A stretch of 64,000 nucleotides of DNA, taken from NCBI GenBank assembly GCA_002989075.1, contig PSQN01000002.1, positions 1,442,097-1,506,096 on the forward strand, written 5' to 3'. This document shows positions 52,481-62,705 of this stretch, in pieces. This DNA comes from Arthonia radiata. Lineage: Eukaryota; Ascomycota; Arthoniomycetes; Arthoniales; Arthoniaceae. The position numbers and the translations under genes were made by a program. Below the pieces are notes generated by a model, which made no database searches, was not told the DNA's origin, and saw only the letters and a program-made list of their open reading frames with translations. Each line of letters starts with the position of its first letter. The first letter of the stretch is position 1.

Positions 52481-54409
52481 TCAACCCCACACACCCAGCC
52501 CCGTCCCCTCCTCCCTTCCTCTCCCCACGACTAAACTCACCCGCCCCTTCTTCTCCGGACTCACACCACTTCGCCTCTTCTCAGGGCTCACCCCACTCCT
52601 TCTCTTCTCAGGACTGATCCCACTCCGCCTCTTCTCTGGACTCACGCCACTAACCCTCTTGACCGGACTCCCCGTCCTCGCCTCCCTACCCTTCCTGCTC
52701 TCCCTCTCCAGCCCTGCCAGTCCGTGCGTCAAGAGGGCTTCGCGATCGATCTCGACTGCGCCCTTCACGCGGAGCCCGGACATGAGCGAGGCGCCGGCCC
52801 AGGGCCCAAGGGTTTGAACGGCGCGGAGTGTGATTTTCTGGCGGGGCGTGTGGGTTGTGTGCGACGGAGGGAGGTTGTGGAGTTTCGCGTAGATGGGGTC
52901 GGGGAGGGGGGTTTGGGCGGAGAGGGAAAGGGGCTTTTTGGTGGGTTCGGAGGATTGGGCGGCGGTGAGAACGTGTTGTTCCGTTCGGTCGGTGGAAGCG
53001 GGATCGGTCGGCTCGTGCACGATGGTCGTCTCACCTGACGCGAACGAATCTGGTGAATCAGGTGGCGTTGGGCTCTCCCTCCGAATATCAGGCGGTGCAT
53101 TCGGATCAGGTAAACCCGCGATTTCGACGCTAATACCATTCCACTTTTGAGGCACGCGTCCGTAGCTGGCGACGGGGCTCCAGCCTTTCGTGCGGATTAG
53201 AGAGGCCAGATCAGTCATGATGCGGGGTTTGAGGCCAGGGATTGCGCTGCACCCGCCTGTGAAAATTATGCGGGTGAAGAGGTGGCCGCGGATGTCTGGG
53301 GGGAGGCGGAGGAGGGTGGTGTAGAGGAGGGTGGGGAGTGGTGTTAGGTCTGTGTCTGGTGGTGGGGTGGGTGGACCGCGCTCTGGTGAGGGTGTGTTGG
53401 GTGGTGCGGTGGTGGCGAAGAAGGTTGATTCGACCGGGTCGGAGAGGGTGGTGAAGGGGACGGGGAGGATGGTGGATGGAGGAAGTGACGGGAGGGTGAT
53501 GCTGATTGTTGTGTCTTCTGTGTTGGATGCTGGAATGGTGGCTTGTTTGCGACACCATATCATGCGGCGGACGACTTCTTCGACGTCTTCGGCTGTGATT
53601 CCGTGTTGCTTTTCGTGATCCGGTAGGTATTGCTGCAGCAATTGCGCGACCTCCCACGCCAGTCTCTTACCAGCGCCCTGACTACGCTCCATGCGGATTT
53701 CCCGGTACTCGTACAACACCGTAACAACCGTCTCGTGCCAGCCGACGTCAACCACTAGTGCGCTCCGGAGACCGGCTGCGACGGCGCACATGACGCTTTC
53801 GCTCAGTAGCGTCATTGTCGTCGGTTGGGGATAGAGCTGGAACACTTTTTCGAGTATGACTTGCAATAGCGGCTGCGGCATCGCGCTCGACACGACGAGA
53901 TATCCCTGCCGTTTCCTGCCTCCACCCTCGTCCATTACGAGCACGTCCTCCTCATTCGCCTGCCGTACCGCGCGCTCCAGGGTGTCGCCCACCAGTCCCA
54001 TGTCCAAGCCGCGCAGGTCTGGCCGATAGAGCTCGTGCTCCCGTGCCCATTGCTCCACGCCGCCCTCATGCTCAGGCCCGGGCATTTTCCGCCGGCTCTT
54101 GAGGTATTCATGCTGTGGTGTAAGGTACTTTTGGTAGTTGCCTGGGCGTTGCTGCAGTTCCGGTCCGAAGCGAACATGTGAGCGCGGTACGTTCTCTCCA
54201 CCGAGGCCCAGGCGAAGGGCTGTGGAGGAGAGGTGGTAGATGTAGATCTCGTCGTCGGTGCGGAAGGCATTGGGATTTGAGAGGGACGGTGAGCCGAAGC
54301 CTGAGAGCGAGCGGGAGAAACAGGAGGGTGTGCGCGGGCTTGGTGCTGCCGGGTTGGTGGGTGAGGATGGAAGAGGAGGAAGTTTCGCGGGGCCGGACCT
54401 TGTGGTCAT
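52481..54409 (-). CDS. ARP10: actin-related protein, Arp10/Arp11-like dynactin subunit
   Basis: Actin-fold protein of the dynactin pointed-end complex (yeast Arp10, Neurospora ro-7/Arp11), needed for dynein-driven nuclear and vesicle movement. 642 residues, single exon, ATG 54409. After a Pro/Ser-rich start come IYIYHLSSTALRLGLGGENVPR (strand and phosphate loop region), GYLVVSSAMPQPLLQVILEKVF, LLSESVMCAVAAGLRSALVVDVGWHETVV (phosphate 2 loop, with DVGWHET in place of the canonical DxGxxxT), and IIFTGGCSAIPGLKPRI (adenosine loop). The family normally has about 400-550 residues; the excess is a Pro/Thr-rich insert (about 290-360) and a C-terminal tail with a tandem repeat. Assignment to Arp10/11 rather than another Arp rests on overall feel and is less certain than the actin fold. 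Confidence 0.75.
   Translation of the reverse strand: MTTRSGPAKLPPLPSSPTNPAAPSPRTPSCFSRSLSGFGSPSLSNPNAFRTDDEIYIYHLSSTALRLGLGGENVPRSHVRFGPELQQRPGNYQKYLTPQHEYLKSRRKMPGPEHEGGVEQWAREHELYRPDLRGLDMGLVGDTLERAVRQANEEDVLVMDEGGGRKRQGYLVVSSAMPQPLLQVILEKVFQLYPQPTTMTLLSESVMCAVAAGLRSALVVDVGWHETVVTVLYEYREIRMERSQGAGKRLAWEVAQLLQQYLPDHEKQHGITAEDVEEVVRRMIWCRKQATIPASNTEDTTISITLPSLPPSTILPVPFTTLSDPVESTFFATTAPPNTPSPERGPPTPPPDTDLTPLPTLLYTTLLRLPPDIRGHLFTRIIFTGGCSAIPGLKPRIMTDLASLIRTKGWSPVASYGRVPQKWNGISVEIAGLPDPNAPPDIRRESPTPPDSPDSFASGETTIVHEPTDPASTDRTEQHVLTAAQSSEPTKKPLSLSAQTPLPDPIYAKLHNLPPSHTTHTPRQKITLRAVQTLGPWAGASLMSGLRVKGAVEIDREALLTHGLAGLERESRKGREARTGSPVKRVSGVSPEKRRSGISPEKRRSGVSPEKRRSGVSPEKKGRVSLVVGRGREEGTGLGVWG
52547..52676 (-). 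repeat. in-frame minisatellite at the C-terminus of the actin-related protein
   Basis: A 27-bp unit, here four to five copies, encodes the tandem peptide RRSGVSPEK (variants ISPEK and KRVSGVSPEK). The unit length is a multiple of three, so copy-number change would keep the frame. Each unit contains an SPEK/SPxK candidate CDK site. Confidence 0.85.
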
Positions 54410-54700: not shown

Positions 54701-57584
54701 ATGGGCATCAAAGGGTATGTTGGTGACTGTTATGGGTTTATTAGAGTCGCTTCTGACCTCGTGCTAGTATATACCAGGAGATCGGTCCTGGGAGGCGGGT
54801 GGCGCTCTCAAGACTAGCTGTTGAACATTATGAGAAGCATGGCCGACCGCTTCGGCTGGCTATCGACATTTCTATATGGCTCTTTCAAATACAGTCTAGC
54901 AAAGGTGCGCACGCTCATGATTCATTTCGATCAGTGACTGATGTTCAGCAGGCGGCACCAACCCTGCCCTTCGGACCTTTTACTACCGCCTTCTTCGTCT
55001 GATCTCACTCTCGATACATCCTCTATTCGTTTTCGATGGACCAAACAAACCCCCGTTCAAGCGCAATAAGCGCATTGGGCCTAATGTTGCGTCCATCCCG
55101 GAGTTCCTGGCGAAGCAGCTCCTCAAGCAGTTCGGCCTCCCTTTTCACCTTGCGCCGGGTGAGGCGGAAGCAGAATGCGCGGTATTGCAGCAAAAAGGCG
55201 TGGTAGATGCCGTGCTTTCAGAAGATGTTGATACACTCATGTTCGGCTCTGGGCTGACATTTCGAAGTTGGAGTCCAGAGCCAACTGTGAAGACCAAGTC
55301 GCCAACGCACGTCAACATTTACGATGCTAAAGAGACGAAAGAAACCGCGGGTCTGGACCGACAAGGCATGATACTGGTAGCCATGATGAGTGGCGGAGAT
55401 TACATCCCAGAAGGCGTGCCAGGGATTGGACAGAAGACGGCCTGCGAGGCTGCACGAGCGCGATTTGGCGAAGATTTGTGCCGCATCAAGAAAGGCGACA
55501 AGAAAGCGATCGCGGAGTGGAAAGAGAGGTTGGTGCATGAGCTGAAGACAAATAAGAGCAAGTACTTCAAACAGAAGCACAAAACCCTGGAAATCCCAGA
55601 GGACTTTCCAAGGACGGATGTGCTTGGCTACTACACAAACCCCGTAGTGTCTTCTGGCGACAAGGTGGAGCAGCTGAAGACCACAGTTTTATGGGATCAA
55701 GAGTTCGACATTTCAGGGTTACGCACATTTTGTGCGGAAGCATTCGATTGGGTGTGCATCAGCGGTGCGAAGCACTTCATCCGCAATCTGTCGAGAGCGT
55801 TGCTCGTACGATCTCTGCGTATGCGAGCAGACGAGCCGAGCTCCGATGATACCTACGAAGTCGCAACAAGAGAAGCGCTGTTGGTCAAGACTATCCACGC
55901 TCGCAGACAACATCCCTCTACGGACAACATTGACGAGTTGCGCATCGGCTTCAGACCGCTTGACATTGTTCCGATCGACCTCGATGCGGAAGAGCCCGAT
56001 CCTGAGCAGGCTATCGAAGGTGTTGAATCTGATGAAGAAGGCGCCAATGAACTTGAGGACGCTGCTGAGCCCGGTGAAGAGCCGGCCTCACCCCGAAAGA
56101 AGCGAAAGACAACCGCATATGATCCTGCATCTATCGTCAAGGAGTGGGTCTTCGAGACTTACATAAAAGTTGGTGTGCCTCTCAAAGTGCAAGATTGGGA
56201 AGAGTCGTTCCGGAATGCCAAGAAGTATGAGTTGATGAAGAACCAACGTAGGCGCGTTGAGAAGGAAGCAAAAGGCAAAAAGACTCGAGGCGGTATGGAA
56301 AGAGGCGCTCTGGACGGTTTCACCAGAGTGACCAAACCAGGCATAAGGTCGACAAAGAGTCCTACGCCGGTGTCTCTCACTCAGCCTCTGTCTGCGCCGA
56401 AAGTTGATGAGATGGAGCCAGTACCACTTACACAGCCCAATCGGTGTTTTCGTCCCCAAGGAAATGCCCAAGCCAGCAGTCTTTCCCAGAACCTCAAAAG
56501 TTCCTTTCGTGCCCCACCAATCATACCATCCTCTTCTCCGGCTCCTGAAGAGACCATTCATCCACCAGCTACCATCGATCTGCTCTCTTCCCCGCCGCAG
56601 AGATCTGTCGTGCCTAGTAAGAGACCGCTTCGAAGAGCAACATCCGACCCATTCAAGCTTGTCGATGATAAGGATGTCAAGCCGAGCAGTCAACTTGCCA
56701 ATGCCATCTCAGACCGCACGCTGCCTGCAGGAGTCTCACCCAAATCTCAGTCTCGTCGGTCGAACTTTCGCCGAACACATACACTTCCGGAGCCTCCAAG
56801 CTCTGCACCGTACGAGCTGGCACAATCACTGCCTTCACAACGTGGATCGTTTGGAGAGGCAACGTCCCCTTCTTCTCGAGCCTCGGGGACCACCTCTCAA
56901 TCTAAACAAGCTTTCAAGAAACCCAAAGAACTCCCACCAGCGTCGGAAAAGCCCAGTCCCAATGCCACGCCACGCGGCGCGAAGAGAACCCAGAAACGAG
57001 CCGCTGCTTCTCCCTCTAAAGCTATCGAAATCACTTCTTCGCCAGCTACTTCTGCGACGAAAATAAAGCAACAGTCTATTACGAATTTCTTCAACTCATC
57101 CCCACCCGCCTCACCATCACCCGTGAGAACGAGGCGGAAGCGTGAGCTTAGCCCATTCTACGCTAATAGCGGGCGCGATTATGACTATGCAAACTTGCCA
57201 AAGATGTCGCCTTTGAGGCCGGCTGTAGCGTCCGGTGTTGACGTGGCGGACGAGAAGCTTCGCGGAGATGACGACGGTTTTTTAGGCGGAGAGAATGACG
57301 TTGCTGATAGAAAGCCCTGCCGCAGCCCACGACTTGGAAAGATTAGCGATATAACTCGAAGAAAGCCACTGACGGAGACCGCCGCCAACCGCATCCGGTC
57401 GAGCGCGGCCTGGAAAATACATGAGGAGCGTAAGAGAACCGTCAGGCTCAGAGATAGCCTTCAAGGGGCATTCGCGCTTGACAACATCGCAGAAGGTGAG
57501 AGTCCGAAGCCAATTGCAGGCAGTACTCGCAAGGGCAAGCGCTGGCGCGTGAGCGAGCTGGAGCTTCTGGACTTGACCGCCTGA
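54701..57584 (+). CDS. GEN1: GEN1/Yen1-type Holliday-junction resolvase (XPG/Rad2 nuclease)
   Basis: Structure-specific nuclease of the Rad2/XPG family that cuts Holliday junctions and flaps during recombination repair. Three exons: 54701-54714 (only 14 nt), 54768-54904, 54952-57584, giving 927 residues. The N-domain has MGIKGIYQEIGP and LAIDISIW (Asp38), VFDG (Asp78); the I-domain has APGEAEAEC (Glu120, Glu122) and SEDVDTL (Asp141, Asp143); GGDYIPEGVPGIGQKTA (Asp199) opens the helix-hairpin-helix. All seven metal ligands of the family are present. The following region (to about residue 370) matches the GEN1/Yen1 extension rather than FEN1, and the rest is Ser/Pro-rich. A PIP-box-like QQSITNFF lies near residue 757. 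The 14-nt first exon is supported by the conserved start motif and frame. Confidence 0.9.
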
Positions 57585-58181: not shown

Positions 58182-61100
58182 ATGTCCGACGATGTGAAAC
58201 GGGCGCAGGCCTCGCCAGCGCAAGAACCACCTCAAGAGACACCGAGGTCTGGTTCTGGCCAGTCTGATCAGACTAGTCCCAGGCGCAGAGAAGCAGTGCA
58301 CGCAATAGCATGTACGACATGTAGTACACGTAAAGTAGGTAGCAGATTGTGACTCCAGACGCCGGCGGCAATCGCGATAGCGGAGTATCCGAGGTCCGGA
58401 AGGCTCGGCTTCGGCTGCACTGTTTATACGCGTGCCAGAAATAACACATCAGCTTACTCGATGCTTACAAGGTCAAGTGCGATCGATTGGATCCCTCATG
58501 CACGAATTGTATGTTGTTGACGTCATAAACAGTGTTACAGATGTGGTCTAATCGAGTCCAGGCGGCAAGAACAACCTAACCTGCGAGTATCGCGCACCGC
58601 TACCTCGAGGTCCGCGTAAACGCAAGTATGGTCCTGATGAGGATTTGCATGCGCGATTGGAGCATTACGAGGTAAGCTTGTGGCGTCCGCAACCAATGCC
58701 AATATTCTTTGTGTTCCCACTTAACGCAGCAAGCCAAGCTAATTGCATGCTGGCTTTGCTAACCACGGATTTTAGGAGCTCTTGAGAAGCTGCGGCATTC
58801 CTCATCCAGCTCACACCACCGTCGGGGAGAAGACCACACTTCCGGTCCGGGACTCTGCGCCGCCCATTAGGGCGGTGCCACGGATCGACGGAGAAATAGT
58901 CACTTTGGAGCAGGGAAAGCCCAGATACATTGAGAAGTGCGCCCGCTTGCCCATTGAATCGTCTCAAAGACTAACAAACGTCCAGCAAGCTATGGCATTC
59001 TGTTGCAGAAGAGGTGCGCAGCCTTTCCTTGTCATCTGTTGAGTGAAACACTAAAGAAACGCAGATACCGCATGATCAAGATGACGACAACGAAGAAGAA
59101 GAGGAACATCCATTCCAGCCCATCAGTAAGTCTCAGAGCAGCCACAGATTTTGTTCTGATACTTTGAAAGCAACGCTTGGCAGCCAGCGCACCGGCGTCG
59201 CCTCAAAGCACCTTGTTTGAAACATTGCTATTCTTCAGAGGCAGCTGTACTGACGCTCTCTTTCTAGGTAAGCCTTAGAGCAGCCACACCCCCGGTTCTT
59301 CGGCCATAAAACCATCATCGGGCAGCTAGCGTGCCGGCGTTGTACTGAAAACCTCGTTTAAAATCGATGAGTATAGAAGGGGCTGTGCTGACATCTCATT
59401 TCTAGGCCTGACACCTGGATCCGCAACTACATCTCAAACTCCCAGCAGCTGGCATAGTGGGCTATTGCTCGGCAATCTATCAGGTAATTCACCTGGCCAA
59501 CATTGGAACTCGCAGCCTCAACATCTCTCTTTTGAGCACACAATGGCTTTACTGGACGTCTTTTGCGCGAATGTCGATCCGCTGACGAAGCTCGTCCACA
59601 TGCCTACTTTTGCAGCCAAAGTTGAAGCGGCGGCCACCAATCCAAGCGCTTCAAACCGGAAATTTGACGCTCTGCTGTTCTCGGTGCTGTTCATCTCTGC
59701 GACTACGATATCGAATCAGGAATGTGATGAGGCTTTTGGTGTGACAAGGTCAAGTTTGTTGGACAACTTGCAAGACATTGCTTCTCGTGCTTTGGTCGCT
59801 GCGGACTTTTTGAGGTCAAACGACATGGAGGTGCTGCAAGGCTTCTCATTGTACTTGGGTGAGTTCAAAGCCCTCACACAATCTCCTGCGATGAGTTTAA
59901 GCACTACTACGATGGATACTCGAGCTCAGAAATATCCCATTGCTCCTAGTTTGTAGAGGCGCTCGAACTGTTGTTTGGACTGTGCTGACCTTTCAATCAC
60001 AGTATGTCCGCATTCCAGTGTCTACTGCTGAGCAAGTGTGCCCTTTTCAGACTGCGTTTTACTGACAAATGATCCAATTCACAGCTAGCCATGCGCGAAC
60101 GTCTCGATCTTAGAACAACTTGGATGCTCAGTGGTACTGCTATCCGCATAGCAATGGGCATGGGCCTCCACCGTGGCGGAGCCTTCGAACACCACTTCTC
60201 GCCTTTCGAGACTCAGTACCGCCGTCGCTTATGGTGGCAGATCGCCGTCATCGACGCACGCGTGGGCGAGTTAGCTGGCTTCGGCGCATCCCCTGTCGCC
60301 TTCGACTCGGACACCGACTCCCCTTTGAACTACAACGACGCTGATCTCCATCCAGATATGAAGGAGCTACCGCCGTCACGGGAGGGTGCTACAGACATGT
60401 TGTTCGTGACGTGCCGTTGCAAATTCCGCGAAGCCGGTCGAAGTAAGGGTATTGGCGCCATGTTCATGGGTGTGAGCAGGTTCAATATGAAGCTGCCTGA
60501 GCGTGAGCGTCGCATTGAAGAGATGGAAAAGATGTTCGAGAATCAGATCTTGAGATATTGTGATCCGTTGGAGCCACTGCATGTGCTTGTATCGGGTAAG
60601 TCTGACCTTGTTGTCGTTCATCTGATGCAGCAGCGGTCAGCTGTTATTACGTCCTATTGTGTCGAGTAAAGCGACTTGCACGGACCTAGCCGTGCTTAAC
60701 AGCTCACTTTTGCGTCTATCGTCGTCATTCACTGACAATGAAAATAGCTATGGCACGTGTCGTCTGCCACCGCCTCCGCCTGAAAGCCTACCACCCCCAA
60801 GTCAACAAAGGTAAGCATCCACCACACATACCACCATCTATCTCTTACATATACTGATAATTCACCCCAGACGAAGGTGCCGAGCCCCTCACGCAAAAAG
60901 AAGAAGACACCTGCTTCCACGCGGCCGTCAAATCCCTCGAATATGACAACCTGCTCTTCGGCTCCCCCAGCGTCCAGGGCTTCCTCTGGCACGTCCGCTC
61001 CCATTACCAATGGGTAAGTCTTACAGCCTCCGCACACTCCGTTCTGGTACCTGGCAACTCTTGCCAGGCAGCCAGCGCGCCGGCGTTGTCTTGACATACT

Positions 61101-61904
61101 GTGTTTAGAACAATGAATAAACTTCAGAAGGTGCTCTGCTGACATCCCGTTTGTAGGACGCCCTCATCTACGTGCTCACGGAGCTCAAACGCCGCGGCCA
61201 CAATGCCGAGACCGCCCGCGCCTGGAAACACGTCGAAGCGTCTTTCAACTATCACCCGGAGTTCATCACCGAGACGCGGAAGCCGCTCCACGCGGCCGTG
61301 TCTAGTCTATGCCTGAAAGCGTGGGCGGCCCGCGAGGAAGCGCAAACGGCGGTAAGTCCTAGAGCTTCTACACCTTTAATTATATATCTCTTTACAATCC
61401 ATTCAGCGGCCTTTCTACCGGCATTGCTCTAGAACATTTGACTCGGCTGCAGTTATAGCTGGTATAGATGCTGTACAGAATCATCAGCACCAAAGTATGC
61501 ACAATATCTATTGAACCGCCTCAAACCCACCGTCCGGCAACAAACGCGCCGGCGTCGTCTCACAATCCTTTGATCGAACCAGACTCCAGAAGCGGCTGTG
61601 CTGACTCTATCTCCAGGCCAGTGCCACGCACACGCACCCGCCCGCGCCAAAGTTCATCGACGCGATCCGGGAGAAGCAGGCGAAGCGCAAGATGCCGAGT
61701 CCGGCCGCGCAGCCGCTGGAGCACAAGAACACCGCGTTTATGAACCAGCCTGATTTCGCGGCGTTTGCGAACGCGAGTTTGGATCCGACGTTTTTTGCGG
61801 ATGGGACGGCGGGGTGGGGCGAGCAGATGGATTGGAGCCTGTGGAATGATACGTTGCAGTTTCATGAGCCTACTGTGATGCAGGGGTTGCCGTGGTTGAA
61901 GTAG
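58182..61904 (+). CDS. Zn2Cys6 fungal transcription factor with fungal-trans (MHR) domain
   Basis: Nuclear DNA-binding regulator. Twelve exons fit in frame: 58182-58334, 58472-58508, 58562-58671, 58776-58936, 58986-59013, 59065-59125, 59406-59857, 60085-60595, 60748-60810, 60871-61013, 61157-61351 and 61617-61904; about 733 residues. The zinc cluster is assembled across exons 1-3: CTTCSTRKVKC then DRLDPSCTNC and GKNNLTC, a perfect C-x2-C-x6-C-x6-C-x2-C-x6-C, followed by a basic linker RGPRKRK. Later YIENKLWHSVAEE and, in the MHR domain, LYLLAMRERLDLRTTWMLSG, GLHRGGAF, RRRLWWQIAVIDARVGELAG. The gene is unusually rich in introns, several 137-280 bp long while neighbours have 47-60 bp; at least four are introner-like. 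Its targets are unknown; no cluster partners adjoin. Confidence 0.85.
59126..59267 (+). mobile_element. introner-like intron, first of a head-to-tail pair
   Basis: 142 bp, GTAAGT..CTAG. Core GCAGCCAGCGCACCGGCGTC at about 59180 and 3' end CTGTACTGAC (branch site) + TTTCTAG match the other copies. It is followed with no gap by the second copy. Confidence 0.75.
59268..59405 (+). mobile_element. introner-like intron, second of the pair
   Basis: 138 bp, GTAAGC..CTAG, with the core GCAGCTAGCGTGCCGGCGTT and 3' GGCTGTGCTGACATCTCATT + TCTAG. Removing the first copy leaves a complete donor next to exon 6, so the two can be spliced in steps or as one 280-nt intron. Confidence 0.75.
59858..60084 (+). 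other. probable [D1,2] spliceosomal twin intron (stwintron)
   Basis: An internal intron 59859-60002 (GTGAGT..CACAG, 144 bp, ending GGACTGTGCTGACC + TTTCAATCACAG like an introner copy) separates the first and second base of the outer donor. After its removal G59858 joins TATGTCC to make GTATGT, and the outer intron ends CACAG at 60084. The resulting protein reads FSLYLLAMRERLDLRTT, the expected MHR sequence. A single intron 59859-60088 is a possible alternative and also keeps the frame (one residue fewer). Confidence 0.55.
61014..61156 (+). mobile_element. introner-like intron
   Basis: 143 bp, GTAAGT..GTAG. Core GCAGCCAGCGCGCCGGCGTT (about 61070) and 3' TGCTCTGCTGACATCCCGTT + TGTAG match the pair at 59126-59405. 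Confidence 0.75.
61352..61616 (+). mobile_element. compound introner-like intron
   Basis: 265 bp, GTAAGT..CCAG. Its last 110 bases carry the core ACGCGCCGGCGTCGTCTCAC and the 3' end CGGCTGTGCTGACTCTATCT + CCAG. The first half contains a second intron-sized piece ending near GTTATAG (61458), so it may be two introns run together. Confidence 0.6.
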
Positions 61905-61956: not shown

Positions 61957-62125
61957 GAGGTGAGTTGGAAGCGGAAGAGCAGGCGCACATTCCGTCAGGC
62001 GGCTTTGGGGTTTTCGTTGGGTAGCTGGTGTGCCGGCGCGGTCTCATGATGCTTTGTTTGAACCGAAGCTTCAGCACGGGCTGTGCTGATGTTTTGTTTG
62101 TGATCGGTGGGAGAGGTGAGTTGGA
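61957..62125 (+). mobile_element. introner-like copy outside the coding sequence, with 13-bp direct repeats
   Basis: Core GTAGCTGGTGTGCCGGCGCG and 3' GGGCTGTGCTGATG + TTTTGTTTGTG match the introner copies. The 13-mer GAGGTGAGTTGGA stands at 61957-61969 and again at 62113-62125, bracketing it. It could be a 3' UTR intron of the regulator or an insertion with a target duplication. Confidence 0.55.
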
Positions 62126-62605
62126 TTGCAGGGATGTGGTTTGGTTCGTGTAGATACTGTCGAGACTCTCAGCTTGGAATTGCGGGCTTATTCATCTCTA
62201 TATGCTTTTATGACAGTGTTGGCATGTGCGTTGCTCGTACAGATATGGTGGCGAAGAACGTGGTCGATAGCGTGCGTGCGACGAAGACTTTTAACGAGAC
62301 GGTCCCCGCGTCCTCTGCCTTTCTGGCGGCCTGCATCCCATGCTCCTCGCGAGACAACGATATCTCACCAGCGATTTTCGAAATGCTCTCGGTCTCTGGA
62401 GCTCAGGTGTCAAGATCCCAATTGCTCCTCGCAAACCTCATGCGTACCCATCGAGAATAACTTGGAGCAAAACTCTCACACGGGTTTTCAAGAAGCTTCA
62501 GTCTGGACTCCAATGAAGCTCGTAGTGTTCGGAGACGATGAGCAGTGTACGGTATCACAGCGACCTCAAGCGCCACAGCATCCGCAGGTTCCGCTGCGTT
62601 TTTAA

Positions 62606-62705
62606 TGAGCAATTCTCAATACTGAAGCGATGGCGTCGCCTCGGAACCACTTCTCCAGGGCATCGACAGTTCTCAAAGAAAGCTGTGCTGATGACTTGAA
62701 TACAG
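62606..62705 (+). mobile_element. introner-like fragment
   Basis: GGCGTCGCCTC is identical to the core of copy 59126-59267, and the 3' end AAGCTGTGCTGATGACTTGA + ATACAG has the shared branch site and an AG. No flanking exon is evident. Confidence 0.5.

Follow-up and report, generated by a model that had tools for sequence, protein, structure and literature searches.

The window analysed here, a 64-kb stretch of the Arthonia radiata genome, carries a gene for a transcription factor with Zn2Cys6 and Fungal_trans domains. Its 12 predicted exons (58182-61904, + strand) join into a 733-aa protein with zero internal stops, in which Pfam matches to the Zn2Cys6 cluster (PF00172, 1.9e-10) and to Fungal_trans (PF04082, 1.2e-18) were found. 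The 11 intron positions measure, in order, 137, 53, 104, 49, 51, 280, 227, 152, 60, 143 and 265 nt. The stretches 59126-59267, 59268-59405, 61014-61156 and 61352-61616 all run from GT to AG, and their excision (the first two jointly) leaves a single open frame; retention of an intron gave a premature stop in all seven cases tried. The features of the gene and its 3' side are listed below under the reading favoured in this work, as copies of an introner-like element (ILE).

58182-61904, + strand: Zn2Cys6/Fungal_trans transcription-factor gene with 12 predicted exons, encoding 733 aa (frame-consistent model and Pfam)
59126-59267, + strand: ILE copy A, 142 nt, GTAAG...CTGAC-13 nt-end, first of a back-to-back pair (leave-one-out E 7.2e-21, branch-to-end spacing)
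59268-59405, + strand: ILE copy B, 138 nt, starting at the base after A's AG (leave-one-out E 1.1e-19, sequence)
59858-60084, + strand: predicted [D1,2] stwintron, intron 7; the external intron, 83 nt, is the G at 59858 plus TATGTCC...CACAG at 60003-60084
59859-60002, + strand: probable ILE copy E, 144 nt, predicted internal intron of the [D1,2] stwintron (CTGAC spacing, z with A)
61014-61156, + strand: ILE copy C, 143 nt, sole intron at its position (leave-one-out E 1.5e-22)
61352-61487, + strand: probable ILE copy D1, decayed, making up the first half of intron 11; its border with D2 is placed to within about 10 nt (shuffles, pairwise z)
61488-61616, + strand: ILE copy D2, making up the second half of intron 11, having lost its 5' splice site (leave-one-out E 2.1e-14, alignment)
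61968-62101, + strand: ILE-derived copy F, downstream of the stop codon, acceptor position without AG (leave-one-out E 5e-13, alignment)
62568-62697, + strand: faint, likely ILE-derived copy X, roughly 0.66 kb downstream of the stop codon (E 0.0001-0.0065, 0 of 500 shuffles, alignment)

Several other features were seen in the window. Directly upstream of the Zn2Cys6 gene, the ORF 55185-57584 encodes a Holliday-junction resolvase-like protein with XPG_I and GEN1_C domains, and 27-nt tandem repeats lie at 52549-52683 within a minus-strand ORF carrying an actin domain. The block 10000-38500 is AT-rich (29% GC) and holds diverged repeats; its RIP-like indices are 1.69 for TpA/ApT (flanks 0.57-0.71) and 0.37 for (CpA+TpG)/(ApC+GpT), compared with 1.24-1.30 in the normal flanks, a composition that agrees in a general way with a filamentous ascomycete. 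Scans of the window with Rfam (gathering threshold) and for tRNAs returned no matches.

Members and age of the intron family

The sequence-only reading had proposed that at least four introns of this gene are related. Using nhmmer profiles that omitted each of five members (A, B, C, D2 and F) in turn, all five omitted members were recovered from the 64-kb window, and the four intronic ones among them (A, B, C and D2, E 2.1e-14 to 1.5e-22) confirm the proposal. A profile built from A, B and C and run over both strands at E <0.01 also matched D2, F and X and gave no further match on either strand. In the profile scans of the window, no match to a family member lay outside 59-62.7 kb at E <0.01, and every member detected at that level sits on the + (sense) strand. 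X was in the seed of none of the six profiles, yet obtained E 0.0001 to 0.0065 with all six. Pairwise alignment of the introns, the check suggested with the sequence-only reading, was carried out as well and showed significant similarity for A-B, A-C and B-C, with scores 11.9-13.7 sd above letter shuffles (200 per pair). The similarity spans the full length of A, B and C, and in D2 the whole length except the 5' end.

A common core and a common 3' end had also been claimed. Two short sequences were counted in the window, and both are enriched over shuffles and concentrated in the family copies. The sequence GCTGTGCTGAC, with at most one mismatch, occurs 8 times in the window against 0.54 expected, a count attained by 0 of 100 shuffles; seven of these occurrences fall within A, B, C, D2, E, F and X, and one (47312) lies in an opposite-strand kinase ORF. 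The sequence CAGCNNRCCGGCGTYG, with at most two mismatches, occurs 5 times against 0.46 expected (0 of 100 shuffles as many), four times within A, B, C and D2 and once at 2544. CTGAC stands exactly 13 nt before the end in A, B, C and E. In silico, judged by frame and domains, A, B and C have complete splice signals and can be removed seamlessly. When a two-part pattern was searched in viral and prokaryote contig collections, 3 and 11 loci were found, none of which was a member on profile scan (0 of 14, best E 0.77), so that these loci are attributed to chance.

With respect to length, the proposed cluster at 138-143 bp describes A (142 nt), B (138 nt) and C (143 nt) well but not 61352-61616, which measures 265 nt and reads as two copies. 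A, B and C are longer than introns 2, 4, 5 and 9 (49-60 nt); the non-matching introns 1, 3 and 8 are also long (137, 104 and 152 nt). The profile scan gave zero matches in introns 1, 2, 3, 4, 5, 8 and 9 and in the external part of intron 7. Introns 1 (58335-58471, 137 nt) and 8 (60596-60747, 152 nt) thus combine a family-like length with no profile match, and may be older, unrecognisable copies or belong to another family.

D1 and E are weaker when each is taken alone and are regarded as probable copies on the basis of sequence comparison. The profile score of D1 was attained by 0 of 500 of its dinucleotide shuffles and its pairwise z was 4.5 with A, 5.3 with B and 3.7 with C; its whole-window E was only 0.17-5.8, and against D2 no pairwise match exceeded z 3. 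E has a pairwise z of 5.4 with A and below 3 with B and C, and a profile score of 1.8 bits that 1 of 500 shuffles equalled. In the window scans E was not detected whole, at most its 3' end being found (one of six profiles, E 4.1). By these comparisons, family membership is firm for A, B, C, D2 and F and likely for X, and the gene appears to carry at least four, probably six, related intron copies.

Outside the coding region, F starts about 64 nt and X about 664 nt beyond the stop codon, both in sense orientation. Each has lost at least one splice signal at a place where no reading frame needs it (n=2): X keeps a branch-like site and acceptor (CTGAT 13 nt before AG) but shows no GT where the donor should be. 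At least one signal is likewise lost on the inner side of the D1/D2 pair. This pattern, in which the outside copies are as few as two, suggests that splice signals are retained where the frame requires them.

The gapped pairwise identity of A, B and C is 67-72% (A-B 97/135, 72%; B-C 98/137; A-C 95/142, 67%), and 59-68% in the eight-way alignment. Since the copies are only 59-72% identical, the insertions of A, B and C are old, and the sequences are a decayed family left by a past wave of insertion, not by a recent burst. For comparison, the excerpted text of PMC4457414 gives 98-99% identity for ILEs that are still active and a much lower value for Dothistroma septosporum. The earlier interpretation as introner-like elements remains the best reading, whereas the "strong local burst" that went with it is unsupported at 59-72% identity. 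The copies are also more numerous than had been listed, given that 61352-61616 counts as two, that E probably belongs, and that F and X lie past the stop codon.

Back-to-back pairs and intron 7

At the sixth intron position, the end of A (TTTCTAG) abuts the start of B (GTAAGCC) with zero bases in between, and the two splice sites that meet there, the acceptor of A and the donor of B, are preserved in sequence. The exon junction around the pair is ATCA/GCCTG in phase 1. Excision of A alone or of B alone leads to a stop in frame, which implies that both are excised, either jointly in a single 280-nt intron or in succession. Intron 11 (61352-61616, 265 nt) looks like a second, worn pair with decayed inner splice sites, the donor being kept in D1 and the branch site and acceptor in D2.

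Intron 7 reads best, judging by its splice signals and frame, as a [D1,2] stwintron with an internal intron similar to the family copies. The frame is lost if 59859-60084 is removed as a simple GT-AG intron. If 59859-60002 is excised first, the newly joined G+TATGTCC can serve as donor of an 83-nt intron whose last base is 60084, and the two-step excision restores the frame as ...GFSLYLLAMRERLDL... The internal intron would split bases 1 and 2 of the external donor (G^GTGAGT...CACAG^TATGTCC...ACTGAC...CACAG). A donor, a branch site and an acceptor are present for both introns of the predicted stwintron, as far as sequence can tell, and one other in-frame splice exists: it uses the acceptor CTAG at 60088 and yields a product of 732 aa, one residue shorter. 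When a 130-aa piece was scored with the Fungal_trans model, the stwintron reading obtained 44.5 bits compared with 41.4 for the CTAG splice.

It is conceivable, if somewhat improbable in our estimate, that A+B and D1+D2 each form one long intron and that intron 7 is a single intron ending at CTAG 60088, with neither a stwintron nor sequential splicing involved. Excision of A+B, D1+D2 or intron 7 in one piece is compatible with the frame, which the CTAG acceptor preserves as well, and D2 has lost its own donor. This account is opposed by the intact acceptor of A and donor of B and by the 3.1 bits by which the [D1,2] reading is better on the 130-aa piece.

Origin of the copies

All copies detectable within the 64-kb window are confined to the region of the Zn2Cys6 gene. 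We interpret them as a family of introner-like elements, spliceosomal introns of about 140 nt that multiplied sense-wise into this gene, and assign this reading a probability of roughly 0.83 from the sequence. It is supported by the relatedness of the copies, their exact ends, the open frame upon removal, the abutment of A and B and the finding that A and B are not each other's best match. In the proposed mechanism, the element would bring its own donor GTAAG, a branch-like CTGAC and an acceptor 13 nt downstream. Copies would have moved as excised intron RNA that returned at the pre-mRNA stage, by reverse splicing or by capture of the RNA at a DNA break, and was then fixed in DNA. Some insertions may have fallen exactly on existing splice junctions, giving the back-to-back pairs A/B and D1/D2, while insertion of E into an existing donor would have produced the [D1,2] stwintron; the ancestor of intron 7 without E would then have been an ordinary intron, GTATGTCC...CACAG. 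Both the movement as excised RNA and the landing on splice junctions are inferred. A crude, post hoc estimate, which omits D1/D2 and presupposes that E and the stwintron reading are correct, puts the chance of two of six insertions falling exactly on intron ends at 8.5e-4.

Local duplication of a single intron of the gene at the DNA level, tandem or ectopic, instead of a dispersed mobile family, would explain why every copy detectable in the window lies in or just after the Zn2Cys6 gene, and the gapped identity of A-B (72%) equals that of B-C. However, tandem duplicates should be nearest relatives, and A and B each align better with C (A-B 125, A-C 139, B-C 141). The site patterns agree: of 62 two-against-one columns in a five-way alignment, A=B accounts for 13, A=C for 24 and B=C for 25, and on a star tree 13 or fewer A=B columns have a probability of 0.024. 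Self-BLAST of the gene at E 0.01 listed A-C and B-C, not A-B, and revealed zero duplicated exons, and F and X are located beyond the coding region. An origin of A/B by tandem duplication is thus disfavoured by scores and site patterns and not by percent identity, A-B being equal to B-C and above A-C in that measure; overall, we consider local duplication unlikely.

A non-autonomous, MITE-like DNA transposon carrying splice sites appears unlikely too, by a slightly lower estimate. Most introners outside ascomycetes resemble such transposons according to the excerpted text of PMC9860276, and two of the copies are located beyond the coding region. In one register, a short near-terminal stem is paired in 83.9% of cells (17 of 500 shuffles as high), while a terminal stem in another register was matched by 256 of 500 shuffles; both registers were picked after inspection, and no structure is claimed. 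Self-complementarity is raised in E (z 2.7) and F (z 2.4) but is low in A, B, C and D2 (z 0.1-0.9). Further, no flanking repeat beyond 1-2 nt was seen when the contexts of introns 6, 7, 10 and 11 were inspected by eye, as is likewise reported for ascomycete introners in the part of PMC9860276 excerpted. The members found are all in sense orientation, including F and X, although two copies say little in this respect. Secondary structure is described as typical of fungal ILEs in the excerpts of PMC8469720 and PMC9024468. Stable folding was not found in A, B, C, D2 and F (z -1.30 to +0.96); D1 and E gave z +0.61 and -1.71, and the RNAalifold consensus held 4 pairs only (-1.67 kcal/mol). A stable structure could be hidden by decay.

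Relation to known introners and stwintrons

Introners, nested introners and stwintrons have all been published. Compared by description rather than by sequence, the introner-like family favoured here shares with the Capnodiales ILEs of Fulvia fulva, Dothistroma and Zymoseptoria, as presented in the excerpted text of PMC4457414, long related introns with their own splice signals, several per gene, that decay with age. Four Capnodiales genes are described there as holding two ILEs each, one of these genes being a fungal transcription factor. A literature search with short strings of published ILE sequence retrieved only unrelated papers. The A. radiata copies differ from that description in being old, in having no strong secondary structure and in forming two end-to-end pairs. 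As in the [D1,2] and sister stwintrons of Hypoxylaceae/Xylariaceae, the predicted donor of intron 7 is split between bases 1 and 2, and the weak near-terminal stem recalls their NTIRE-10; in those families whole stwintrons multiply, whereas in the A. radiata gene an element made of one intron has apparently inserted into the donor of an ordinary intron (PMC8469720, PMC9024468 and PMC12403724, as excerpted). Micromonas introners are similar in being sense-only, in having nested or merged copies and in leaving decayed ones near UTRs and inside older introns; they differ in belonging to a green alga, in their thousands of copies and in their motifs (PMC3879977, excerpted text). A similar inference, the return of intron RNA, is drawn from nested or merged introners in the same excerpts, and the excerpted part of PMC12403724 proposes that intact intron RNA inserts at breaks, also within an existing intron.

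In conclusion, what stands out at this locus is the possible landing of a fungal introner on splice sites that were already there; end-to-end or nested fungal ILEs may have been described before. How new introns originate is a long-standing question. Copies that lie end to end or inside another donor without being nearest relatives would, if real, require insertion machinery that recognises splice sites or unspliced RNA. This would speak for a route through RNA rather than DNA transposition and would provide a simple origin for stwintrons, although a single gene is not enough for a decision. We consider it doubtful, yet worth stating, that a fungal introner family preferentially inserts at existing splice junctions, turning simple introns into zero-length-exon pairs and [D1,2] stwintrons. 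If this were true, introners and stwintrons would be steps of one spliceosome-guided process.
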